A stretch of DNA of 12,825 nucleotides from an uncultured beta proteobacterium (GTDB lineage Bacteria > Pseudomonadota > Gammaproteobacteria > Burkholderiales > Rhodocyclaceae), in NCBI GenBank assembly GCA_903932755.1, contig CAIZHL010000386.1, positions 1-12,825 of the forward strand, given 5' to 3'. This document shows positions 1,853 to 12,458 of the stretch, piece after piece. Below the pieces are notes generated by a model, which did no database searches, was not told where the DNA came from, and saw only the letters and a list, made by a program, of their open reading frames with translations. A program made the position numbers and the translations under genes. Within the stretch, counting starts at the first letter, position 1. Each line of letters opens with the position of its first letter.

Positions 1853-2107
1853 ATGAGTGCAAGCACCTGGAGCGACGATGCCATTACCGCCAAGATTCGG
1901 GAAATCGCCAAGACCACCTTCGGCATGGACCTGCCAGACAGCAACCAGCCGATAAAAGACTCGGGGCTCGACTCGCTGGCGCTGATCGACATCGTGATGG
2001 GCCTCGAGGAAACCTTCGGCTGCCAGTTGCCGCTGGAACGCCTGCCGGCGAACCCGACCATCAATGACTTCGTCACCCTGGCGCAATCCAGCCTGAGCAA
2101 GCTGTGA
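1853..2107 (+). CDS. Acyl carrier protein, dedicated (non-housekeeping) type
   Basis: An 84-residue acidic acyl carrier protein. The phosphopantetheine attachment motif GLDSLALIDIV is present with Ser41 as the modified residue, inside the usual four-helix ACP pattern (N-terminal helix from about residue 8, acidic helix II after Ser41 containing MGLEETFG). It carries acyl chains as thioesters. It differs from typical AcpP (DSLDTVELV) and lies outside a fabD/fabG/fabF cluster, so it is probably a specialised carrier. Its stop overlaps the GTG start of the ketosynthase gene (GTGA), which strongly suggests a functional pair, as in nodF-nodE. No good Shine-Dalgarno sits close to the ATG; the nearest GGA is about 14 bases upstream. 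I infer that it carries the substrate for the ketosynthase and then for the RpfF-like enzyme two genes downstream. Confidence 0.93.
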   Translation: MSASTWSDDAITAKIREIAKTTFGMDLPDSNQPIKDSGLDSLALIDIVMGLEETFGCQLPLERLPANPTINDFVTLAQSSLSKL

Positions 2108-3330
2108 AGGAGGTCGTCGTCACCGGCCTCGGCATCGTTTCGCCCATCGGCCAGTCCGCGGCGGAAGTTCTCGATCACCTGCTCGAAGTGCGCTCCGGCA
2201 TCGGCCTGTGGTCCGCCGCGGGCCACAAGAAGACCTTCCCGGCGGGCCTCGTGACGGGGGATTTCGACAGCGCTTTCGAGCGCAAGGACCTCCCCTACCT
2301 CGATCGCCTGACCAAGCTCGGCGTCGCCGCCGCCGATCAGGCGCTGGCCGATTCCGGGCTGCCGTCGAACCTGGCCGAGCTCGACCTGCGCGCCGGAGTT
2401 TTTGCCGGAACCGTGTGCGGCGGCACCGATACCCAGTGCCAGTGGCTACGCGACTATTCCGTCGAGGGCAAGCAGACCGCCCGCCCCTTCACCATCATGG
2501 CCGGCATGCACAACGCCCCGACCGCGTGGATTTCGATCCGCCACCAGATCGCCGGTCCGGTCATCACCCATACCGCCGCATGCGCGTCTTCCGGCGCGGC
2601 GATCGGCGAAGCCATGCGCTGGATCCGCCACGGCGACCTCGACGTGGCGATCGCCGGCGGCGGCGAGGCAGCGCTGATCCCGCCCTTCATGGGTGCCTGG
2701 GACGGCCTGCGGGCGCTGGCCCCGCCCGATCCGGACGATGTCGGACGCAGCTGCCGGCCGTTTTCGCGCAATCGCAGCGGACTGGTGCTCGCCGAGGGTG
2801 CGGTGTTCTTCGTGCTGGAATCGGCCGAGCACGCCCTGGCGCGCGGTGCGCGCATCCTCGCCACGCTGTCGGGTTACGGCATCGCCTGCGATGCCTATCA
2901 TGTCGGCGCCCCCCATTCGCGCGGCCAGACGGCAGCCGTTGCGGCGGCCTTGCGCGATGCCGGCCTGCAGCCGGCCGAGCTGTCCTACATCAATGCCCAT
3001 GCCACCGCGACGGCGACCGGCGACCCGGTGGAAGTCGCGTCGCTGCGCGGCGCCCTCGGCGCCGCCGCCGATGACATACCCGTCAGCAGCACCAAGGCCC
3101 AGCACGGGCACATGCTGGGCGCCGCAAGCGCCATGGAACTCGCCGTCTGCCTGCTCGCCATGCAGCACGATTTCCTTCCGGCGACCGCCTTTCTCGACGA
3201 GATCGACCCGGCCTGCCCGCTGCGCCACGTGCCGGCGGTCGCCGAGCGGGATGTGCAAATTCGCCACACTTTGAGCCTGAGCGCGGGTTTTGGCGGCACA
3301 AACGTCGCCCTGGTGCTCAGCAAACGGTAG
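2104..3330 (+). CDS. Beta-ketoacyl-ACP synthase, FabF/NodE family
   Basis: Thiolase-fold condensing enzyme (408 aa, standard FabF length) that elongates an acyl-ACP with malonyl-ACP by decarboxylative Claisen condensation. The active-site set is complete: nucleophile Cys160 in THTAACASSG, His299 in INAHATA, Lys331 and His336 in STKAQHGHMLGA, and the C-terminal GFGGTN gate loop (residues 395-400). Translation starts at GTG, overlapping the ACP stop (GTGA), so the ACP is the obvious partner. It is followed after 31 bp by the RpfF-like gene on the same strand. The pairing of a dedicated ACP with a FabF-like enzyme resembles NodF/NodE, which make special unsaturated acyl chains. Chain length and substrate cannot be read from the sequence. 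A role in another secondary lipid remains possible. Confidence 0.93.
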   Translation: MKEVVVTGLGIVSPIGQSAAEVLDHLLEVRSGIGLWSAAGHKKTFPAGLVTGDFDSAFERKDLPYLDRLTKLGVAAADQALADSGLPSNLAELDLRAGVFAGTVCGGTDTQCQWLRDYSVEGKQTARPFTIMAGMHNAPTAWISIRHQIAGPVITHTAACASSGAAIGEAMRWIRHGDLDVAIAGGGEAALIPPFMGAWDGLRALAPPDPDDVGRSCRPFSRNRSGLVLAEGAVFFVLESAEHALARGARILATLSGYGIACDAYHVGAPHSRGQTAAVAAALRDAGLQPAELSYINAHATATATGDPVEVASLRGALGAAADDIPVSSTKAQHGHMLGAASAMELAVCLLAMQHDFLPATAFLDEIDPACPLRHVPAVAERDVQIRHTLSLSAGFGGTNVALVLSKR

Positions 3331-3361
3331 TATCAAGCCTCCATTTGTGGTCAGGCATGCC

Positions 3362-4273
3362 ATGGTGAAGACTGCTTCCATCGCACAGCAAGAACCCCGG
3401 GGCGACGCTTCGCTCGCAACCCGGCTGGACAATTCGCTCGATACGCTCTGGGTTTCGCTGCAACCCGTGGCCGGGCGGCCGCACAATTTCTCGCCGGAAC
3501 TGCTCGCCGGCTTCGAGCGCCTGCTCGACCGGATCGAAGGCAACGACTGGCACTGGCAGGAGGACTCGCGCGAGGGGCGCCTGCGCTACCTCGTCCTGAC
3601 GTCGAGCCATCCCCGCCATTTCGCCCTGGGCGGCGACCTCGCCTACTTCCAGTCCTGCATCGAAAGCGGCAACGCCGGCGCCCTGCGCGCCTACTCGATG
3701 CGCTGCCTGGAGCTGATCCGGCGGATTTTCTCCGCGGCGCACCGGGTCACCACCGTCAGCCTGGTCCAGGGCCGCGCCCTGGGCGGCGGCTTCGAAACGG
3801 CCTTGAGCGCTTCGCACCTGATCGCCGAGCGCGGCGCCGAATTCGGCTTTCCCGAAATCGCCTTCGGCACCTTCCCCTGTACCGGCGGCATGACGCTGCT
3901 GGCGAACCGCATCGGCCTGCGCCGCGCCGCCGCCTTCATGCGCAATGCGCGCATCCATTCCGCCGCGGACCTGCACGCGCAGGGCGTGGTGGACGAATTG
4001 TGCGAGAACGGCGAAGGCCCGGCCGCGGCGCAGCGCTTCATCGCCGAACACCGCCGCCGCTACAACGCCCGCATGGCGCTGCAGCGCGCCGAAGCGCGCA
4101 TGGGCGCATTCGACCTCGTCGAACTGCGCACCGTGGTCGAAGACTGGGTCGAGACGGCGATGGCGCTGTCGGCCGAGGAACGCCGGGTGCTCGCCACCCT
4201 GGTCCGCATGCAGGCGGCCGATGCCGGCGCCGCCGTGCTCAGGCCACCGACTGTCCTGAAGCATTCGGCTTAG
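3362..4273 (+). CDS. rpfF: RpfF-type DSF synthase (crotonase/enoyl-CoA hydratase superfamily)
   Basis: A 303-residue crotonase-fold protein that I assign to the RpfF family. In Xanthomonas, RpfF dehydrates a 3-hydroxyacyl-ACP and releases the cis-2-unsaturated fatty acid signal DSF. The resemblance runs through the core: FALGGDLAYF (residues 87-96), SLVQGRALGGGFETALS (about 133-149) and FGFPEIAFGTFP (161-172). The two catalytic glutamates correspond to Glu145 and Glu165, with the same 20-residue spacing as Glu141/Glu161 of Xanthomonas RpfF. The C-terminal WVETAMALSAEERRVLATLVR segment also matches the family. The frame is open from 3290, inside the ketosynthase gene; I chose the ATG at 3362, which clears that gene and fits family length. 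The 3' end overlaps the convergent rpfC-like gene by 35 bp. Divergence in the pocket loop (FPCTGG where Xanthomonas RpfF has FPGMGA) suggests a different acyl chain. A generic enoyl-CoA hydratase is less likely given the rpfC and rpfG neighbours. Confidence 0.9.
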   Translation: MVKTASIAQQEPRGDASLATRLDNSLDTLWVSLQPVAGRPHNFSPELLAGFERLLDRIEGNDWHWQEDSREGRLRYLVLTSSHPRHFALGGDLAYFQSCIESGNAGALRAYSMRCLELIRRIFSAAHRVTTVSLVQGRALGGGFETALSASHLIAERGAEFGFPEIAFGTFPCTGGMTLLANRIGLRRAAAFMRNARIHSAADLHAQGVVDELCENGEGPAAAQRFIAEHRRRYNARMALQRAEARMGAFDLVELRTVVEDWVETAMALSAEERRVLATLVRMQAADAGAAVLRPPTVLKHSA

Positions 4274-6314
4274 CCGCGGCGCACCACTCCCGCAGCGCCC
4301 CGACACTGTTGGCGCTGACGTCGGCAAGTTCGGTCGCAAGCTTGGTCCGTACCGCCTCCAACCCCGCAACGTCGGTCTGCATGATGGAAACCGCCATGTT
4401 CTTGAGGCGGAACGCCCCCATCTGATGGGAGACGCCCTTCAGGGCATGCGCCAGTTTCTTGACCTCGTCCCATTGCGCATCGCCCAATGCGTCAAGCAGG
4501 CTTGCCGTGGTCCGCTCGATGTCGCGGACCGCGTGATCGATCATTTCCCCGAGAAACGCCGGCCGCTTGCTGATGGCCGCCACCTCCGCCAGGACCTCGG
4601 TGTCGAGGTAAAGGATGGGCACCGCACGCAGCCCGGGAGTTGCCCGGATTTCGGCGCCGGCCGTCCCCGCCGGGAAGGTATCCGCCAGCACTTCGCGAAT
4701 TTCCGCCAGCCGCACCGGCTTGCCGATGATGCCGCAGGCATCGGTGTCGCGCAGGCGCGCCATGGTGTCGGCCGAGGTATCGGCGGTGAGGAAGAACACC
4801 GGCGCCGGATCGCGCACGCCGAAACGGTAAACCTGCAGGACCTGGATGCCGTCCATGTCGCCCAGGTTGTAGTCGAGGAAGATCACCTCCGGCGCCTCTT
4901 CGGGCAGCGCCAGCAGATCGAGCGCGGCCTGCCCCGAATCGGCAATGCTGACGGCATGACCGTCCTGCTCGAGGATCTCGCGCAGCAGATGCAGGTTGGT
5001 GACGTTGTCGTCGACCACCAGTATCCGCAGCGGCTTCGCGGCAACGCGCTCCGCGGACGCGGCCGGCGCCAGCGGCAGCGCGTCGGCGCGCGGGAAATGG
5101 ACGTCGAACCAGAAGCGCGAACCGCGACCGGGCACGCTCGAAACGCGCAACTGGCTGCCCATCAGTTCCACCACGTCCTTGCAGATCGACAGGCCGAGGC
5201 CGGTGCCGGTGGAGCGGCGGGCGGGGCCGGTGTCGAGCTGCACGAAGGGCTTGAAGATGTTTTCCAGGTCGGCCTGGGCAATGCCGATGCCGCTGTCCTC
5301 GACGGCAAAGCGCAGGTAGAACCGGTCGGGGGCGGCATCGAGCACCATTACCCGGATCACGACCTGGCCCACCTCGGTGAACTTGACCGCGTTGCCTGCC
5401 AGGTTGAGCAGGGCACGGCCGAGGTAGTGCGCATCGGCGATGCTCGCGGAGTCGAGCCGCGGATCGATGATGACCTGCAGGTCGAGATGCTTCTCCTTGG
5501 CCTTGGCGCGCACCGCCGCTTCCACCGTGCCCATCAGTTCGCGGATGTCGCAGACGCCCGGGTTCAGGATCAGGGACTTGGCCTCATGCTTGGCCTGGTC
5601 GAGCAGGTCGGCGATGTCTTCCTGCAGGTGCTTGGCCAGGGCCATGATGGTGCTGGCCAGCCGTCCATGGGGAGATGTCGGCGCCGCCATGTGGATCAGG
5701 TCGGCGGCGGAAACGATTCCCCCCAGCGGGGTGCGCAGTTCATGCGAGACCTTGGCCAGCATGTCCGACTTGGCCCGGCTCTCTTCCTCGGCGCGCTGCC
5801 GCGCGGCGTGCAGCTGGTCGAGCAGCATGCCCACATACAGGGGAATGATGATCAGCGGCACGGCGAAGGCAATCGCCCTGACCGGATGCTGCAGCCATGC
5901 CGGATGGATGGCCAGCAGCAGCACGTAGCCGGCCAGGGTCACCATCTGGTTGACCATCATGACGTACTTGTTGCCGGTGCGCAGCCCGTAGCCAAGGCCG
6001 GTGAACAGCGCAAAACCGAGGACGAGGCCGGCGGCGTCCTCGATCAATGGCAGCCAGAAAATCAGGAAAACCGCATCGAGTGCCGCGGTGCAATAGATGG
6101 CCGGCGACCAAAGCCGCTCCGGCAGCCGCCTCGATGCGACCCAGGTGGTGGCGATGTACACGAAGTAGCAGGCGATCGCCCACTCCGCCCACAACAAGAC
6201 CTTGTCCGCCGCATAATGCAGCCACACCAGCACCCCCGTCATGGGTATGCCGATGAACGCGCGCAGTCTGGCCTGCTTCTCCAGTACGACTTGAAGTGTC
6301 GAGGCGGCTTGCAT
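4239..6314 (-). CDS. rpfC: RpfC-type hybrid sensor histidine kinase (membrane sensor, HK, REC, HPt)
   Basis: Inner-membrane sensor of 691 residues. Order: a short charged N-terminus, about five hydrophobic segments within residues 18-167, HisKA with the phospho-acceptor His191 in SHELRTPLGG, an HATPase domain with N-box NLAGNAVKF (Asn308), VEDSGIGI and GTGLGL, a receiver domain (about 428-545) with Asp481 and Lys532, and an HPt domain with His623 in LAHALKGVSHQMGA. This is the exact architecture of Xanthomonas RpfC, the DSF receptor. The sensor also keeps RpfC-like details: a GLGYGLRTGNKYV stretch and an IPLY segment just before the HK domain. The frame can be extended to a GTG at 6440, but that extension looks non-coding; ATG 6314 places the N-terminus as in RpfC. 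The gene converges on rpfF and diverges from rpfG. Expected role: sense the signal made by RpfF and phosphorylate RpfG. Confidence 0.92.
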   Translation of the reverse strand: MQAASTLQVVLEKQARLRAFIGIPMTGVLVWLHYAADKVLLWAEWAIACYFVYIATTWVASRRLPERLWSPAIYCTAALDAVFLIFWLPLIEDAAGLVLGFALFTGLGYGLRTGNKYVMMVNQMVTLAGYVLLLAIHPAWLQHPVRAIAFAVPLIIIPLYVGMLLDQLHAARQRAEEESRAKSDMLAKVSHELRTPLGGIVSAADLIHMAAPTSPHGRLASTIMALAKHLQEDIADLLDQAKHEAKSLILNPGVCDIRELMGTVEAAVRAKAKEKHLDLQVIIDPRLDSASIADAHYLGRALLNLAGNAVKFTEVGQVVIRVMVLDAAPDRFYLRFAVEDSGIGIAQADLENIFKPFVQLDTGPARRSTGTGLGLSICKDVVELMGSQLRVSSVPGRGSRFWFDVHFPRADALPLAPAASAERVAAKPLRILVVDDNVTNLHLLREILEQDGHAVSIADSGQAALDLLALPEEAPEVIFLDYNLGDMDGIQVLQVYRFGVRDPAPVFFLTADTSADTMARLRDTDACGIIGKPVRLAEIREVLADTFPAGTAGAEIRATPGLRAVPILYLDTEVLAEVAAISKRPAFLGEMIDHAVRDIERTTASLLDALGDAQWDEVKKLAHALKGVSHQMGAFRLKNMAVSIMQTDVAGLEAVRTKLATELADVSANSVGALREWCAAAKPNASGQSVA

Positions 6315-6606: not shown

Positions 6607-7671
6607 ATGCGCCAGAACGTACTTGTAATCGACGACCAGACCTCCAATGCCCTGCTGGTTGCCGAGATCCTTTCCGGCATCTCCGCGGACATCGACGTCG
6701 TCACCTTCGCCCAGCCGCTGGAAGCGGTGCGCTATGCGGCGGAAAACCCGCTCGACCTGGTCATCACCGACTTCAGCATGCCCGAACTCGACGGCCTCGG
6801 CGTGATCCGCCAGCTCAAGCGCATGGAGCATCTGTTCGACCTGCCGATCGTCGTGGTCACCGCGCTGGATGACATGGATGTGCGCTATGCCGCCCTCGAC
6901 GCGGGCGCCGCCGACTTCCTGACGCGGCCGATCAACCACCGCGAATGCCAGGCCCGCTGCCGCAACCTGCTCAAGATGCGCCTGTTCCAGTTGCAGAACA
7001 AGCGGCATGCCGAAGTCCTCCAGCAGCGCGTCGCGGAGGTCAGCGAGGACCTCCAGCAGCGCAACATGGAAATGCTGCAGCGCCTGGCGGTAGTCGCGGA
7101 GAAGCGCGATTCGGAGACCGGGCAGCACCTGCTGCGGATGGCGCGCTATTCGATGCTGCTGGCCCGCGAGGTGGGCTTCAGCGAAGCCGAGGTGCACGTG
7201 ATCGGCATGGCGGCGCCGCTCCATGACATCGGCAAGATCGGCATTCCCGACGAGATCCTGCTCGCACCGCGCCGGCTCAGCGAAAGCGAACTGGTCGTGA
7301 TGCGCACGCATCCCGTGATCGGCTACGAGATGCTGCAGGGATCGACGTCGGAATCGATGAAGATGTCGGCCGACATCGCCCATTACCACCACGAGCGCTT
7401 CGACGGCAGCGGCTACCCGACGGGCCTGCGCGGCCAGGACATCCCGCTCTCGGCGCGGATCGTCGCGGTGGCCGATGTCTGGGACGCCCTGCTGTCGACG
7501 CGCCCCTACAAGACGCCGTGGACCGAAGAAGCGGCCGTCGACCTGCTGCGCCGCGGCGCCGGAGTCCAGTTCGATCCGCGCCTGGTGGATGCCTTCCTGG
7601 CAAATCTGAACACCTTGCGCGAGATCCGCAGCGAGGCGGCCCGGTCAACAGTCACATCGCCGCCGCCCTGA
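6607..7671 (+). CDS. rpfG: RpfG-type response regulator, receiver plus HD-GYP c-di-GMP phosphodiesterase
   Basis: Cytoplasmic two-domain regulator of 354 residues. The N-terminal receiver (about 1-125) has acidic residues Asp9/Asp10 and phospho-acceptor Asp55 in LVITDFSMPELDG. A coiled linker (about 128-160) leads to an HD-GYP domain (about 160-340) with the metal ligands His206-Asp207 in LHDIGKIGIPDE and the full HHERFDGSGYP signature (261-271), so c-di-GMP hydrolysis is expected. The receiver position that is usually Lys is Arg107 (LTRPIN). This is the domain order of Xanthomonas RpfG, the partner of RpfC, whose gene lies divergently next door. Start ATG 6607 is preceded by GAGG at 6597-6600; the frame is open further upstream but without coding character. 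Phosphotransfer from the RpfC HPt domain should activate it and lower c-di-GMP. Confidence 0.93.
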   Translation: MRQNVLVIDDQTSNALLVAEILSGISADIDVVTFAQPLEAVRYAAENPLDLVITDFSMPELDGLGVIRQLKRMEHLFDLPIVVVTALDDMDVRYAALDAGAADFLTRPINHRECQARCRNLLKMRLFQLQNKRHAEVLQQRVAEVSEDLQQRNMEMLQRLAVVAEKRDSETGQHLLRMARYSMLLAREVGFSEAEVHVIGMAAPLHDIGKIGIPDEILLAPRRLSESELVVMRTHPVIGYEMLQGSTSESMKMSADIAHYHHERFDGSGYPTGLRGQDIPLSARIVAVADVWDALLSTRPYKTPWTEEAAVDLLRRGAGVQFDPRLVDAFLANLNTLREIRSEAARSTVTSPPP

Positions 7672-7845: not shown

Positions 7846-8064
7846 ATGGCCCGAAAGAAGAAACTGGATTTTTCCGACATTGCGGAGACGCGCAAGAAGC
7901 AGAACATCAATCAGACCGAGTTCTGGACGCGTTACGGCGTCACTCAGTCCGGAGGTTCCCGCTACGAGTCCGGCCGCAACATCCCCAAGCCGCTGGCGAT
8001 CCTGCTCTGGCTGCATCGCTCGGGCAAGGTAAGCGACAAGGATCTGGCGGAAGCCCTGAAGTAA
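7846..8064 (+). CDS. Small XRE-like helix-turn-helix DNA-binding protein
   Basis: A 72-residue basic protein. Residues about 21-43 (NQTEFWTRYGVTQSGGSRYESG) form a Cro/XRE-like helix-turn-helix of a type I recognise from small conserved betaproteobacterial proteins; the N-terminus is Lys/Arg-rich (MARKKK) and a short helical tail follows. No further domain is present, so it probably acts as a dimeric DNA-binding regulator. The start is set by a good ribosome binding site, AGGAG at 7833-7837, eight bases before the ATG; the frame is open upstream without coding character. A 13-bp palindrome lies just upstream and may be its operator. Its position between rpfG and the thioesterase and pga genes makes it a candidate local regulator, but its targets are unknown. 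Confidence 0.85.
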   Translation: MARKKKLDFSDIAETRKKQNINQTEFWTRYGVTQSGGSRYESGRNIPKPLAILLWLHRSGKVSDKDLAEALK

Positions 8065-8070
8065 GGACGC

Positions 8071-8111
8071 GCATCCGTGCGGATGCCCGGCGGCATCACC
8101 TTGGCGCCGGG
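8071..8111 (+). promoter_or_regulatory. Three mutually exclusive hairpins ahead of the thioesterase gene, attenuator-like leader
   Basis: The 63-bp gap after the HTH stop can fold in competing ways. Stem A pairs GCATCC (8071-8076) with GGATGC (8081-8086). Stem B pairs GATGCC (8082-8087) with GGCATC (8092-8097). Stem C pairs CCCGGCG (8086-8092) with CGCCGGG (8105-8111) and ends directly at the ribosome binding site. B excludes both A and C. This looks like a transcriptional or translational switch, although there is no T-run and GC-rich DNA folds readily. Confidence 0.4.
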
Positions 8112-8118
8112 AAGGAGG
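8112..8118 (+). promoter_or_regulatory. Strong ribosome binding site deciding the thioesterase start
   Basis: AAGGAGG lies nine bases before the ATG at 8128 and fixes that ATG over the earlier in-frame ATGs at 8077 and 8083. It directly follows the 3' arm of the last leader hairpin. Confidence 0.8.
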
Positions 8119-8127
8119 ACTGAAGCG

Positions 8128-8550
8128 ATGATCGAAACCGCACGCGGCACGGTGCACGAGTGGCAGCGCGACCACATGGGCCACATCAATGTTCGCGCCT
8201 ACATGGAATTTCTCGAAGAGGCCTGCTGGCAGTTCTATGCCATGCTCGGCATGACGGCTTCCCTGCTGCGCAGCGGCGCCCTGCACCTGGCCGCCGTGCA
8301 GCAGGACATCAGCTACAGGAAGGAACTCTATCCGGGCGACACGGTGGCGGTGCGCACCGGCGTGCTGGAAATGCGCGAGAAGGTGCTGCGCTTCCGCCAC
8401 GAATTGTTCAATACCGAAACCGGCGATGTCTGCTCGGTCTGCGAGTTCACGGTGGTCTGCCTCAATCCGCAAACCCGCAAGTCGCAGCCCTTTCCCGCAC
8501 AGGTGGCGGCGCGCGCCAGGGAATTGATGCTGCCGGCGGAGCCGGCATGA
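8128..8550 (+). CDS. Hotdog-fold acyl thioesterase, 4HBT family
   Basis: A 140-residue protein of the 4-hydroxybenzoyl-CoA thioesterase (4HBT/YbgC-like) family, which hydrolyses acyl-CoA or acyl-ACP thioesters in the cytoplasm. The N-terminal motif RDHMGHINVRAYMEFLEEA carries the expected catalytic Asp (Asp15) followed by GHxN and a Tyr three residues on. The middle contains the usual Y-RKELYPGD strand-turn. The start at 8128 follows an excellent AAGGAGG site. Its stop overlaps the start of a second, different thioesterase gene (ATGA), so the two are co-translated. The substrate cannot be read from the sequence. Given the neighbouring RpfF and ACP genes, release or recycling of signal-related acyl groups is a possibility but only inferred. 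Confidence 0.88.
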   Translation: MIETARGTVHEWQRDHMGHINVRAYMEFLEEACWQFYAMLGMTASLLRSGALHLAAVQQDISYRKELYPGDTVAVRTGVLEMREKVLRFRHELFNTETGDVCSVCEFTVVCLNPQTRKSQPFPAQVAARARELMLPAEPA

Positions 8551-9032
8551 AGAAGCCCGTCGCCGCAGCCGCCGCTGCGTTCGAGCCCGAATTCATCGAC
8601 GGCCTGAAGAAGATTTTCGAGGAAATGATCATCTTCAACCAGGTCCTCGGCCTCAAGGTCACCTCGATCGCCGAGGACCGCGCCAGCGGCCGCATCGAGA
8701 TGCGCCGCGAGCTGATCGGCCATTACAGCCACAACCGGATCCACGGCGGCGTCATCAGCGCCAGCCTCGACGCGATGGGCGGCCTGGCGGTGCTGGCGGC
8801 GATCGGCGCCCGCCACATGGACGAGCCGCCGCAACAGAGGCTGGCCCGTTTCGGCAAGCTGGGCACCATCGACCTGCGCATCGACTATCTGCGCCCAGGC
8901 ATCGGCGAGCATTTCGAACTGCGCGCCGAAGTGCTGCGCCTGGGCTCGCGCGTCGCCACCACCCGCATGGAATTCCTCGGCGCCGACGGCAAGCTGCTGT
9001 CCACCGGGGCGGGTGCCTATATCGTTTCGTGA
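8547..9032 (+). CDS. yigI: YigI/PaaI-like hotdog acyl-CoA thioesterase
   Basis: A 161-residue hotdog-fold thioesterase of a different subfamily from its upstream neighbour. It contains the PaaI-type signature NRIHGGVISASLDAMGG, with His66-Gly-Gly and probable catalytic Asp75. A long match to E. coli YigI runs through RLARFGKLGTIDLRIDYLRP to the C-terminal AGAYIVS. YigI-family enzymes cleave medium- to long-chain acyl-CoAs. I chose the ATG at 8547 because it overlaps the upstream stop (ATGA); earlier in-frame starts lie within the other thioesterase gene. The Ala-rich N-terminus (residues 5-11) is probably just flexible. Followed after 85 bp by pgaA. A cotranscribed pair of thioesterases suggests two successive or alternative acyl substrates. 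Confidence 0.88.
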   Translation: MKKPVAAAAAAFEPEFIDGLKKIFEEMIIFNQVLGLKVTSIAEDRASGRIEMRRELIGHYSHNRIHGGVISASLDAMGGLAVLAAIGARHMDEPPQQRLARFGKLGTIDLRIDYLRPGIGEHFELRAEVLRLGSRVATTRMEFLGADGKLLSTGAGAYIVS

Positions 9033-9117
9033 AAGCGCCGGGGCAAGCGCGAGGATTTCCGCCGGAGCACGCCTGGTTTTCGTGCGGGATCCGCCACACC
9101 TAGCCGACATCGTGCGC

Positions 9118-10926
9118 ATGCCCGCCCGCCACCTCCTGCCCTGGTCTTTCCTGCTGCTCGCCGCGAGCGGCGGGCTGGCAGCTGCCGAAAATCCGGAGCA
9201 GCGCGTCGCCGAGGGCGACCGGATCGCCGTCGAGATTCGTTACGGCATCATCGATCGCAACACGCTGCGCGGACCCGACCGCTTCCTGCGCATCGATCGG
9301 GCCCTGGCCGCAAGCGATGCCCTTGCCGCCGATTTTTTCGCCGGCAAGGCGCCGGATGCCGAAGACCGGCGGCGCCTGACCGATCGCATGAGCGCCCTGT
9401 TTTTCCGCCGCCGTGCGGCCGATGCCGTCGCCCTCTTTGAAGCTTTCCTCGCCCGCGACCTGGCGGTGCCGACCTGGGCCAAGCGCGACGTCGCCGGCAG
9501 CTATCTCGAACTGCGCAATCCGCGCAGCGCCGCTGCGCTTTACCGCGAAGTGATCGCGGCAAATCCGGATGATTTCGAGGCCAACCTCGGCCTGTTCTAT
9601 GCCCTGGTCGAAAGCGAGGAACTCGATCCCGCCACGGCGCACATCGATGCCTTCGCCGCGCGACTGCCCGAACGCCGGCATCGCGACGGCAAGTACAACG
9701 GCGAACGCCTGAGCAGCGACATCGCCGCCGACCAGGCGCGGATCTACGGCGACCGCCTGCAGGAAGCGCAGGCGCGCATCGAGGCCAGAACGGCCGCCGC
9801 GCCTTTCAATGGCGAGGCGCGCCAGGCTGCCGCGTCGCTGGCGCTGGCGCGCGGCTGGCCGCGCCTGGGCGAGGAACTGTTGCGCCGGATCGCGGGGTCC
9901 GATCCGGAGAACGCGGCAGTGCAAGCGGATCTTGCCGAAGTGCAACTCGGGCTGCAGAACTGGCCGGCGGCGCAGGAAAGCCTGGGCCGGGCGCGCGGAC
10001 TCGACCCCGACAACGGCGGTGTCCGCCGTGCCGGCAGGACATTCGAACTGCACGACAGCCACGAGTTCTATACCGAAGCGGGCTACGGCCGCGGCCAGGA
10101 CAGCGCCTTCAACGGCAACCGCGACTGGTCGAGCGACAGCTATCTCTACAGCCGGCCGCAGGCCGACCGCTGGCGGTTTTTCGTGCACAACTTCACCGGC
10201 AGCGCGGATTTCGACCGCAGCACTACAAAGTGGATACGCACCGGCGTCGGCCTGGAATGGCGCTGGCTGGACTGGCGCCTCACCGGTGAAGTAAACGACG
10301 GCAGCGGCGAAAAGGCCGGCCTGTCCGCCACCGCCCGCTGGAAGGCGGACGACCACTGGACCTTCCATGGCGCCGCCGAGAGCGTCAGCAACCAGATACC
10401 GCTGCGCGCGGTGCAAAGCGGCGTGCGCGCCAGCCGCGCCAGCGCCGGCGCGGACTGGCAGGCCAACGAGTCGCGCAAGCTGTCGGCGGGCGTGGCCGCC
10501 AGCGATTTTTCCGACGACAACCGACGCACGTCGGTCAATGCCGCCTGGTTCGAGCGCTGGTCCAGCGGCCCGCAATGGATGTTCGAAACGACGCTGGGCG
10601 GCGACGCCTCGCACAACACGCTGGGTACCGGGGCCAGCTATTTCAATCCGGAAAACGACCGCTCGCTGTGGCTGACCGCCGCCGTCGAAAACCTGGTCTG
10701 GCGCAACTACGAGCGCTCCTTCCGCCAGCGCCTGGCGCTGACCGGTGGCCACTACTGGCAGCAGCATTTTGCGTCGGGTTCGATCGAGGCCGTCGAATAC
10801 GGCCACCGCTGGGAACTCGAGCGCGACCTGTCCGTCCGCTACGGCATCGGCCGCAGCTTTCGCCCCTACGACGGCGCGCGCGAAGCGCGCAGCTTCGCCA
10901 ACCTGAGCGTGCTATGGCGCTTCTGA
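9118..10926 (+). CDS. pgaA: PNAG export porin PgaA-like (TPR domain plus outer-membrane beta-barrel)
   Basis: Outer-membrane secretin-like porin for poly-N-acetylglucosamine, 602 residues. Residues 1-23 form a signal peptide (hydrophobic LLPWSFLLLAA core, then GGLAAAE). Residues about 80-310 are helical repeats of TPR character (for example SAAALYREVIAANPDDFEANLGLFYAL and AQESLGRARGLDPDN). From about residue 315 alternating aromatic strands make a beta-barrel, ending LSVLWRF with the terminal Phe typical of outer-membrane proteins. The stretch YGIGRSFRPYDG near the end resembles PgaA. It is about 200 residues shorter than E. coli PgaA (807), mainly in the TPR part. Start: ATG 9118 directly precedes the signal peptide; there is no strong ribosome binding site and GTG 9112 is an alternative. 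It overlaps pgaB by 13 bp. Confidence 0.88.
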   Translation: MPARHLLPWSFLLLAASGGLAAAENPEQRVAEGDRIAVEIRYGIIDRNTLRGPDRFLRIDRALAASDALAADFFAGKAPDAEDRRRLTDRMSALFFRRRAADAVALFEAFLARDLAVPTWAKRDVAGSYLELRNPRSAAALYREVIAANPDDFEANLGLFYALVESEELDPATAHIDAFAARLPERRHRDGKYNGERLSSDIAADQARIYGDRLQEAQARIEARTAAAPFNGEARQAAASLALARGWPRLGEELLRRIAGSDPENAAVQADLAEVQLGLQNWPAAQESLGRARGLDPDNGGVRRAGRTFELHDSHEFYTEAGYGRGQDSAFNGNRDWSSDSYLYSRPQADRWRFFVHNFTGSADFDRSTTKWIRTGVGLEWRWLDWRLTGEVNDGSGEKAGLSATARWKADDHWTFHGAAESVSNQIPLRAVQSGVRASRASAGADWQANESRKLSAGVAASDFSDDNRRTSVNAAWFERWSSGPQWMFETTLGGDASHNTLGTGASYFNPENDRSLWLTAAVENLVWRNYERSFRQRLALTGGHYWQQHFASGSIEAVEYGHRWELERDLSVRYGIGRSFRPYDGAREARSFANLSVLWRF

Positions 10927-12458
10927 TCCGCCTCTGCTTCCTGCTGATGGTCCTGCCGGCCTGCGCCCAGCCGGCGGGCGGCTTCATCGCCCTGAGCTAT
11001 CACGAAGTCGAGAGCGATTCGGCGCCGCTCACCTCCCCCACCGCCGTCCGCGCCTCCGACCTTGCGGCCCAGTTCGCCTGGCTCAAGGCCAACGCTTACC
11101 GGCCGGTCAGCCTCGATGCGATCATCGCCGCGCGCAAGGGCGGCGCGGCGCTGCCGCCGAAGGCCGTCCTGCTTACCTTCGACGACGGGCTGAAGGACTT
11201 CCATACCCGTGCGTTCCCGCTGCTCAAACAGTTCGACTATCCGGCGGTGATCGCGCTGGTCGGCGCCTGGCTGGATGTCGAGGCGGGCAAGACGGTCGAT
11301 TACGACGGCGCGGCGCGGCCCCGCGCGGATTTCGTCACCTGGGACGAGGTGCGCGAAATGCAGCGCTCCGGGCTGATCGAAGTCGCCACTCATACCTACG
11401 GCCTGCATCGCGGCATTCTGGCCAACCCGCAGGGCAATACGGAACCCGCGGCAATCACCCGCCTCTACGCCGACGGACGCTACGAAACGGACGAAGCGTA
11501 TCTTGGCCGGCTCGGCCGGGATCTCGCCGCCAGCAGCCGCCTGATCGCCGAGCGCAGCGGCAGCGCGCCGCGCATCCTGGTCTGGCCCTACGGCCGCAGC
11601 AACCTTGCCGGACAGGAGATCGCCGCCGGGCTCGGCATGGCCGGCGCCTTCACGCTGGAAGACGGACCTACCCCGGCGTCGAGATCGCTGTTCCATATCC
11701 GTCGCTACCTCGTCGAGAACAGCCCGTCGCTGCAGGAATTTGCCGAACTCCTGCGCAATGCCTGGGCGCCGGACCCGGCGCGCAGCGTGAAGATCGTGCC
11801 GGGGCGCTGGCAGGACGAAGAAGCCGGACTCTCTGCGACACTCGACCGCCTGCTCGCGCTGCAACCGAACATGGCCTTCGTGTCGCCGTCCGTGCAGCGC
11901 GACGGTCGTGAGCTGGCGCTGTTCGCCACCTCCCGCCTGCCGCTCGCCCGCGACAGCCTCAACCACATCTGCTGGCAGACCGAGAGGCGCGCCGGCGTGC
12001 CGGTTTTCATCGACCTGCCCGACCACTGGCTGGGCGACGCCGCGCTGGTCGCCGATCTCGCGCGCCACGTCAATTTCGCCGGGCTGCGCCTGCGCGCTAT
12101 GCCGGGTAGCACCACGGCGGCCGGGGTGCGTGCCGCCGCCGAACGCTGGCGCTGGCCGCTGCAGTTCGTCCATGCGCTGGACCGGACGCCGGACGCCGAC
12201 GTCTGGGCGCAACTGGCGGAGAAGGACTTGATCGTCCTGCCGGCGACCGAGGCCAACATCGCGGCACTCCCGGCCGGCGCAAAAGCAAAGGTGCTGCTCG
12301 AATTCGACCCGGCCCTGCCCGCCGCGGAAATCGCCGGGCGCATGCGAACGCTGGAAGCCGAGGGCTTCCGCCAGTTCGGCCTGGCCGGCCTGCCGCAAGA
12401 CGGCATGGACGCCGTCGGCCGCGTTCTCTCGCTGCGCTCGCAGCCGCAGCTCAGGTAG
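10914..12458 (+). CDS. pgaB: PNAG N-deacetylase PgaB-like lipoprotein with degenerate C-terminal domain
   Basis: Periplasmic lipoprotein that partly deacetylates PNAG before export, 514 residues. A short signal peptide ends in the lipobox LPAC (Cys17). The CE4 deacetylase domain (about 25-270) keeps the PgaB catalytic set: His30 in SYHEV, Asp90-Asp91 in LTFDDG, and metal ligands His160 and His165 in ATHTYGLH, with spacings matching E. coli His55, Asp114/115 and His184/189. WPYG (224-227) is also conserved. The C-terminal part (about 290-514) aligns with the GH153-type hydrolase domain (for example LPLARDSLNHICWQTERRAGVPVF) but is over 100 residues shorter. By my alignment it reads RLRAMPG where E. 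coli has a His-Asp-Asp motif. Deacetylation is therefore expected, glycan cleavage doubtful. The start overlaps the pgaA end by 13 bp; pgaC begins 6 bp after the stop. Confidence 0.92.
   Translation: MALLIRLCFLLMVLPACAQPAGGFIALSYHEVESDSAPLTSPTAVRASDLAAQFAWLKANAYRPVSLDAIIAARKGGAALPPKAVLLTFDDGLKDFHTRAFPLLKQFDYPAVIALVGAWLDVEAGKTVDYDGAARPRADFVTWDEVREMQRSGLIEVATHTYGLHRGILANPQGNTEPAAITRLYADGRYETDEAYLGRLGRDLAASSRLIAERSGSAPRILVWPYGRSNLAGQEIAAGLGMAGAFTLEDGPTPASRSLFHIRRYLVENSPSLQEFAELLRNAWAPDPARSVKIVPGRWQDEEAGLSATLDRLLALQPNMAFVSPSVQRDGRELALFATSRLPLARDSLNHICWQTERRAGVPVFIDLPDHWLGDAALVADLARHVNFAGLRLRAMPGSTTAAGVRAAAERWRWPLQFVHALDRTPDADVWAQLAEKDLIVLPATEANIAALPAGAKAKVLLEFDPALPAAEIAGRMRTLEAEGFRQFGLAGLPQDGMDAVGRVLSLRSQPQLR

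Follow-up and report, generated by a model that had tools for sequence, protein, structure and literature searches.

A cluster of rpf genes with its own carrier protein and ketosynthase

The 12,825-nucleotide stretch of contig CAIZHL010000386.1 analysed here (the window), which stems from an uncultured beta proteobacterium of the Rhodocyclaceae, carries a putative quorum-sensing cluster of the diffusible signal factor (DSF) type in which the synthase gene rpfF is preceded by genes for an acyl carrier protein (ACP) and a beta-ketoacyl-ACP synthase (KAS). On the forward strand, the cluster begins with a cluster-specific ACP of 84 aa that is distinct from housekeeping AcpP and has a DSL phosphopantetheine serine (1853..2107; Pfam PP-binding, E 1.3e-12). 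It is followed by a FabF-like KAS of 408 aa (2104..3330; Pfam N- and C-terminal KAS domains, best NCBIfam match FabF) whose start overlaps the ACP stop by 4 bp (GTGA) and, after a gap of 31 bp, by an RpfF-family crotonase of 303 aa, a predicted DSF synthase with an ATG start and both catalytic glutamates (3362..4273). The gene for an RpfC-like hybrid histidine kinase (4239..6314, reverse strand) is convergent with rpfF, with a 35-bp overlap of the gene ends that places the kinase stop at 4239, and beyond it lies the gene for an RpfG-like response regulator with REC and HD-GYP domains and intact HD and HHExxxGxGYP motifs (6607..7671, forward strand). The kinase start, an ATG at 6314, was chosen by reading within an open reading frame (ORF) extendable to 6440, and the ORF of the RpfG-like gene is extendable to 6340. 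A promoter scan of the window found no promoter, and an Rfam scan gave no match.

A sequence-only reading of this DNA had proposed an ACP, a KAS and a crotonase fused into one operon. We indeed confirmed the three proteins with their coordinates, the GTGA overlap, the 31-bp gap and both glutamates, though "fused" would be wrong if taken literally, these being three separate genes. The extent that it gave to the cluster is right for these three genes but leaves out the RpfC-like kinase, convergent with rpfF, and the RpfG-like regulator.

Conservation of the layout among close RpfF relatives

RpfF relatives, defined as matches at E ≤ 1e-20, were collected from three partly overlapping genome samples and are present in 18 of 101 related genomes, 70 of 399 genomes of the order and 50 of 275 genomes of the class, while a pattern scan of named genomes, covering close relatives only, yielded loci L005-L015 at an identity of at least 43%. 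Gene neighbours were read at 127 loci and in the window, giving 129 RpfF ORFs; 11 weaker RpfF places (G307, G336, G246, G392, G364, G338, G318, G655, G542, G602, G537) were left out, as was L052 from all counts, which shares a contig with L005. The RpfF tree has 133 rows (the 129 RpfF homologues and four solved synthases) and was made by a quick method with SH-aLRT support only and with long branches, and its deep branching was not used.

In this tree, the window RpfF sits in a clade of 16 rows (SH-aLRT 99; hereafter the clade). All 16 have a KAS gene within 8 kb, which lies directly upstream of rpfF in 15, and an ACP is present in 15/15 clade loci, immediately before the KAS in ten and, in the five loci from Lysobacteraceae, on the far side of the kinase gene (the ACP profile found an ACP for 14/16 rows, and the ACPs of L010 and L015 were added via tblastn). 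The conserved ACP-KAS-rpfF synteny that the earlier reading had put forward as a check thus holds across 15 loci. A kinase related to that of the window is found near all 16 clade rows and an RpfG-like regulator near 12, with none seen at L011, L013 and L015 and with L053 stopping at a contig end. Whole-genome searches of 14 of the 15 clade genomes gave 17 RpfF matches (E ≤ 1e-20), all with at least 44% identity, so that no canonical RpfF was seen beside the clade RpfF. Named carriers include a Sulfuritalea metagenome-assembled genome (MAG), Lysobacter sp. Root690, Luteimonas sp. 8-5, Luteimonas suaedae and Pseudoxanthomonas koreensis, and the non-MAG carriers among them (Lysobacter sp. Root690, Luteimonas and P. 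koreensis) have no other RpfF at E ≤ 1e-20.

The KAS and the synthase also travel together across genomes: among the 101 relatives, a clade-level KAS (at least 51% identity) and a clade RpfF occur in the identical five (G000, G020, G029, G031, G051), an overlap with a chance of 1.3e-8 if genomes are treated as independent and of 6e-6 if three lineages are counted. The next-best KAS of these relatives reach at most 46% identity, and in three genomes with a KAS at 44-46% (G096, G080, G035), no RpfF match reaches E ≤ 1e-20. A class-wide KAS search in 275 genomes gave none above 43% identity except the window's own and added nothing to the co-occurrence.

Individual clade loci show further variation. 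An AMP-binding (RpfB-like) gene lies upstream in L014, and the regulator gene of L012 is preceded by a gene for a class II tRNA synthetase (D/K/N type); near the Xanthomonas rpf genes, there is a lysS gene. Three genomes (G729, G732, G733) have two clade-type RpfF each, the second copies of G732 and G733 (49-50% identity) falling beyond the stretches read, and two KAS each are found in L006 (2062-8837) and L010 (6561-16825); such double RpfF/KAS sets could mean two signals.

The crotonase as a predicted DSF synthase

The catalytic glutamates of the window crotonase lie in GGGFE and GFPE motifs, align with E141 and E161 of RpfF from Xanthomonas campestris pv. campestris (Xcc) and are kept in 16/16 clade rows. 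Since ordinary enoyl-CoA hydratases have the same pair, we treat it as a weak criterion and rejected it as proof of a DSF synthase on its own. Better evidence comes from family score and fold: the crotonase reaches 243.2 bits against the DSF synthase family model PRK08788 of NCBIfam (cut-off 177), for which the Burkholderia-type L163 scores 409 and the Stenotrophomonas-type L114 411.9. Its nearest PDB sequence is Xcc RpfF (3m6m), and the five best structural matches of its AlphaFold2 model (pLDDT 87.4) are all five solved DSF synthases, to which the modelled fold is closer than to other crotonases, with 32-33% identity to Xanthomonas RpfF in structural alignment. Two glycine positions of RpfF have been tied to thioesterase activity (PMC9040811); these are kept in 14/16 and 13/16 clade rows vs 113/113 and 109/113 other RpfF, and the window RpfF retains both (Gly 86 and 138). 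Eleven RpfF positions are specific to the clade, including changes from Gly169 to Cys and from Tyr173 to Met shortly after the second catalytic glutamate.

Taken differently, the crotonase might be an ACP-dependent dehydratase/isomerase that makes unsaturated lipid chains with the KAS, or an ordinary CoA hydratase. Its divergence from Xanthomonas RpfF, which extends to a score below the strict equivalog model (see below), the glutamate pair common to crotonases and the less strict retention of the thioesterase-linked glycines across the clade would all agree with such a function. We nevertheless consider it very improbable given the score above the PRK08788 cut-off, the best structural matches being DSF synthases throughout, the presence of both glycines in the window protein and the RpfC- and RpfG-type genes that adjoin it.

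The synthase is already known as a DSF synthase insofar as JGI annotation gives this label to a number of close relatives (among the 120 of 733 matches listed). Among the same listed matches, Thiomonas proteins of ca. 50% identity may belong to the clade.

Dedicated and diverged ketosynthase and ACP

Both partner proteins fall below the cut-offs of their housekeeping families, the KAS with a score of 366.5 against FabF model TIGR03150 (cut-off 493.75) and the ACP with 27.4 bits against AcpP model TIGR00517 (cut-off 70.45). In the KAS tree, all 17 KAS of the clusters group in a single clade (support 100/100), and the 16 other KAS, found in eight of the nine genomes searched, fall outside it; two of the latter (L193, L200) lie closer to the cluster KAS than the remaining 14 do. 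Besides the cluster ACP, 7/8 genomes encode an AcpP that scores above the family cut-off, the exception being the window's own MAG, which is 70% complete. Judged by these comparisons, the cluster has a second KAS and a second ACP of its own in addition to housekeeping FabF and AcpP, in agreement with the private carrier and elongation enzyme of the sequence-only reading.

The "self-contained route" of that reading is not borne out. No ketoreductase, dehydratase, enoyl reductase or malonyl transferase was found among the window genes scanned (a subset of the ORFs), and none of the reduction, dehydration or malonyl-transfer enzymes of fatty acid synthesis (FAS) among 15 Pfam-scanned neighbouring ORFs from 11 clade loci (also a subset). 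The other FAS steps therefore most likely come from general fatty acid synthesis, and ACP, KAS and RpfF would form a specialised module for elongation and delivery that falls short of a complete pathway.

Both proteins keep their catalytic equipment, with the KAS cysteine, both histidines and the lysine present in every readable row and the serine of the ACP's DS(L/M/I) motif in 15/15 clade loci. Eleven KAS positions separate the clade from the 16 other KAS. Position 304 is Ala in 16/16 clade rows vs Gly in 16/16 others, position 398 is Ala, Cys or Ser in 16/16 readable clade rows and Phe in 15/15 readable others, and position 108 is Arg, Asn, Ser or Cys in 17/17 clade KAS and Ile in 8/16 others. 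We take Ile108 to line the acyl pocket of FabF, and Phe398 and Gly304 to neighbour its active-site loops.

Recurrence outside the clade

A KAS gene lies within 8 kb of 10/113 non-clade RpfF, against 0.82 expected from genome density, an estimate that takes its KAS density from nine genomes (31.2 Mb, rounded sizes), where the threshold differed slightly, and that counts sister loci singly. Three of the ten were discounted, namely L138, in which a very long KAS ORF, PKS (polyketide synthase)-like by length only, lies ca. 6 kb off and without an ACP, as well as L133 and L159 with their ACP-KAS-ACP sets. Seven remain (L079, L086, L112, L145, L148, L149, L161; P(≥ 7) = 2.4e-5), of which L145/L148 and L149/L161 are sister rows; the ACP adjoins the KAS in six, and the sequence of L161 ends inside the KAS. 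The KAS of these remaining loci belong to several lineages of the KAS tree. Because nine changes of the KAS label are needed on the RpfF tree (the three discounted loci included), ACP-KAS pairs have probably become associated with rpf genes repeatedly, and we see in this recurrence the best reason to assign the pair to the signal system.

The discounted ACP-KAS-ACP sets (L133, 11156-16136; L159, 11131-12938) lie directly beside rpf genes; in L133, AMP-binding and LpxL-type acyltransferase genes come after the set, which is possibly an aryl-polyene-like cluster. These loci bear on the possibility that KAS and ACP make some separate secondary lipid and that their genes merely adjoin rpf. Besides the L133 set (the one scanned) running into lipid genes, this would account for an ACP-KAS pair outside the rpfF operon in L055, a patatin-like gene near the L015 cluster and an alpha/beta hydrolase gene near the clusters of sister loci L007 and L008. 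Otherwise, however, the 15 scanned ORFs of 11 clade loci include no recurring lipid-cluster gene, it is RpfF and the RpfC- and RpfG-like proteins that recur as neighbours, and clade KAS and clade RpfF share the same five of 101 genomes. We thus regard a separate lipid as unlikely.

Four non-clade RpfF rows (L082, L105, L110, L116) have an ACP nearby and no KAS. In L086, the ACP-KAS pair (11474-14154) lies between an RpfC-type kinase gene and an opposite-strand gene for a cyclopropane-synthase-like methyltransferase, a neighbour that might point to a signal with a cyclopropane ring or a methyl group, and in L079 (7930-12323, reverse strand) a radical SAM gene precedes ACP-KAS-rpfF on the same strand.

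The kinase and its altered input motif

The Pfam domains of the window kinase follow the RpfC-type order of a membrane sensor, HisKA, HATPase, REC and Hpt, with the His, Asp and Hpt motifs present, and in their sensor domain the clade kinases are homologous to 55 other RpfF-linked kinases (hhalign 99.8%). A crude hydropathy scan gave three membrane segments for the window kinase, five for the 85%-identical kinase of L005 and three to six across 12 clade kinases; RpfC is described with five transmembrane helices (PMC5391125).

On the membrane side, the other RpfF-linked kinases carry an ExEQAxxR motif with E at position -3 in 41/44 and at -1 in 34/44. The window and clade kinases differ in having LxxQAxxR or VxxQAxxR in 10/10 cases, with QAxxR kept and position -1 never E (these counts exclude kinases where the motif was not found, i.e. 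2/12 in the clade and 11/55 others). In Xcc RpfC, membrane-adjacent residues of the N-terminal input region are described as essential for DSF sensing (PMC5391125), and the ExEQAxxR motif would correspond to this region.

A proposed precursor-supply module for a DSF-family signal

The genes, their layout, conservation and co-occurrence and the intact catalytic motifs are directly observed and, together with the predicted fold of the synthase, suggest to us that the cluster probably serves quorum sensing of the DSF type and has a precursor-supply module of its own. From them we infer that KAS and ACP feed RpfF, as well as the DSF-family product and the signalling steps. After phosphopantetheinylation, the cluster ACP would carry the growing acyl chain and the KAS would catalyse the condensation step that determines the length or type of the chain, with reductions and dehydrations coming from housekeeping FabG (and FabZ/FabI for earlier rounds). 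RpfF would then take the 3-hydroxyacyl chain off the ACP, dehydrate it to the cis-2-enoyl form and hydrolyse it to the free fatty acid, much as RpfF is described to dehydrate 3-hydroxyacyl-ACP to a cis-2-enoyl chain that is freed as an acid (PMC6361424). The convergent RpfC-like kinase would sense this fatty acid and phosphorylate the RpfG-like HD-GYP regulator, which would lower cyclic di-GMP (c-di-GMP). With the same gene set recurring in distantly related bacteria, some bacteria may therefore build a DSF signal partly with dedicated parts and not only with the general fatty acid machinery.

What kind of signal such a module would make is harder to tell. KAS and ACP could merely boost the supply of 3-hydroxyacyl-ACP to RpfF or control its timing, the signal being an ordinary DSF or BDSF (Burkholderia DSF), as RpfF requires acyl-ACP and Xcc RpfF is reported to work through the general FAS cycle and to tolerate chains of 8-14 carbons (PMC4542539). 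Such a role would also suit the intact KAS triad, the tapping of general FAS indicated by the lack of other FAS enzymes among the scanned cluster genes, and the missing 304/398 substitutions in KAS beside non-clade RpfF. The changes at KAS positions 108 and 398, the clade-specific RpfF positions and the altered receptor motif instead suggest a different acyl group, and a mere boost in flux seems rather doubtful to us. Tentatively, and with less confidence than in the supply module itself, we propose a separate DSF branch in which the private ACP and a KAS with a remodelled pocket lead to a chemically new molecule sensed by a matching, diverged RpfC. This molecule could differ in length, have a polar or branched end, or carry an extra double bond from the KAS elongating an enoyl chain. 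As shared derived traits of one clade, the substitutions in KAS, RpfF and receptor fit a changed signal without proving one.

Several observations weigh against a dedicated supply module. With the ACP-KAS pair of L055 lying apart from rpfF and preceding a regulator gene, and the ACP of the Lysobacteraceae lying beyond the kinase gene, the genes do not always form one operon, and L006 has a second KAS-rpfF pair without its own ACP. No KAS was seen for 103/113 non-clade RpfF in the stretches read, some of them cut by contig ends, so the module is no general requirement, and in Xanthomonas, RpfF produces DSF from general FAS with no ACP or KAS of its own. Nine KAS beside non-clade RpfF retain Gly304 and Phe398, which makes the substitutions a trait of the clade and not of rpf-linked KAS generally. 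The window RpfF scores 139.8 bits against the strict RpfF equivalog model NF053515 and thus falls below its cut-off of 550, as does the Burkholderia-type L163 (183), whereas the Stenotrophomonas-type L114 passes (579.7). Many clade genomes, finally, are MAGs.

Among described systems, the window is most readily compared to the Xanthomonas rpfBF/rpfGHC cluster, in which rpfGHC is convergent with rpfF (PMC4504480) and with which it shares an RpfF-family synthase gene convergent with that of an RpfC-type kinase as well as an RpfG-type HD-GYP regulator. It differs in having a dedicated ACP and KAS upstream of rpfF, in an rpfG that is divergent from rpfC and not in one operon with it, and in having no rpfB beside rpfF. 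Burkholderia DfsA (BCAM0581) and Cronobacter RpfF are described as linked to the RpfR receptor (PMC6361424), unlike the window synthase. Near three sampled Burkholderia-type RpfF (L163, L164, L168), neither KAS nor ACP was found. By arrangement alone, the pair resembles rhizobial NodF/NodE, a specialised ACP with a FabF-like KAS, where NodE is the ketosynthase making the special acyl chain of a signal, except that RpfF would in our case release the chain as a free fatty acid, where the Nod chain ends up on a lipochitooligosaccharide. NodF is described as a specialised ACP (PMC9386255), and the same source describes AcpR/AasR with the serine palmitoyltransferase of Rhodobacteria, which also have a private ACP encoded with its user enzyme but serve a sphingolipid pathway and have an acyl-ACP synthetase in place of the KAS.

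The sequence-only reading knew of no described rpf cluster with this layout, and our full-text literature search, which covered titles and the starts of abstracts and left most subscription papers outside its coverage, likewise found no description of an ACP-KAS-rpfF cluster. A dedicated ACP-KAS branch of the DSF system thus appears to be undescribed. In the described DSF systems considered here, the synthase draws on the general fatty acid pool, which leaves the control of signal choice an open question; a synthase branch with its own carrier, condensing enzyme and diverged receptor makes this question testable, and its occurrence in named non-MAG organisms opens signal chemistry and receptor matching to study. 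If the signal is indeed a new molecule, carriers would have a private channel within fatty acid quorum sensing.

Flanking genes

Upstream of the cluster, the window contains a metG-like gene, recognised by eye, and an acylphosphatase gene. Directly after the RpfG-like gene follow, all on the forward strand, a gene for an RsaL-like helix-turn-helix (HTH) protein of 72 aa (7846-8064; PF22495, E 1.1e-24), two overlapping 4HBT-type thioesterase genes (8077-9032) and, downstream of the c-di-GMP regulator gene, pgaA-pgaB for poly-N-acetylglucosamine export (9109-12458), where the PgaA match spans only model positions 222-800 of 800 and the PgaB match only 3-361 of 621. We rejected the acylphosphatase, HTH, thioesterase and pga genes as members of the conserved unit on account of their rarity in the stretches read, where the acylphosphatase occurs again only in L005 and L053, the HTH and thioesterase genes only in L005, and pga nowhere. 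RsaL is a repressor of a quorum-sensing synthase in Pseudomonas, and the RsaL-like protein has a 93% counterpart in the same-genus locus L005, which carries a DNA polymerase III alpha gene at the position of pga.

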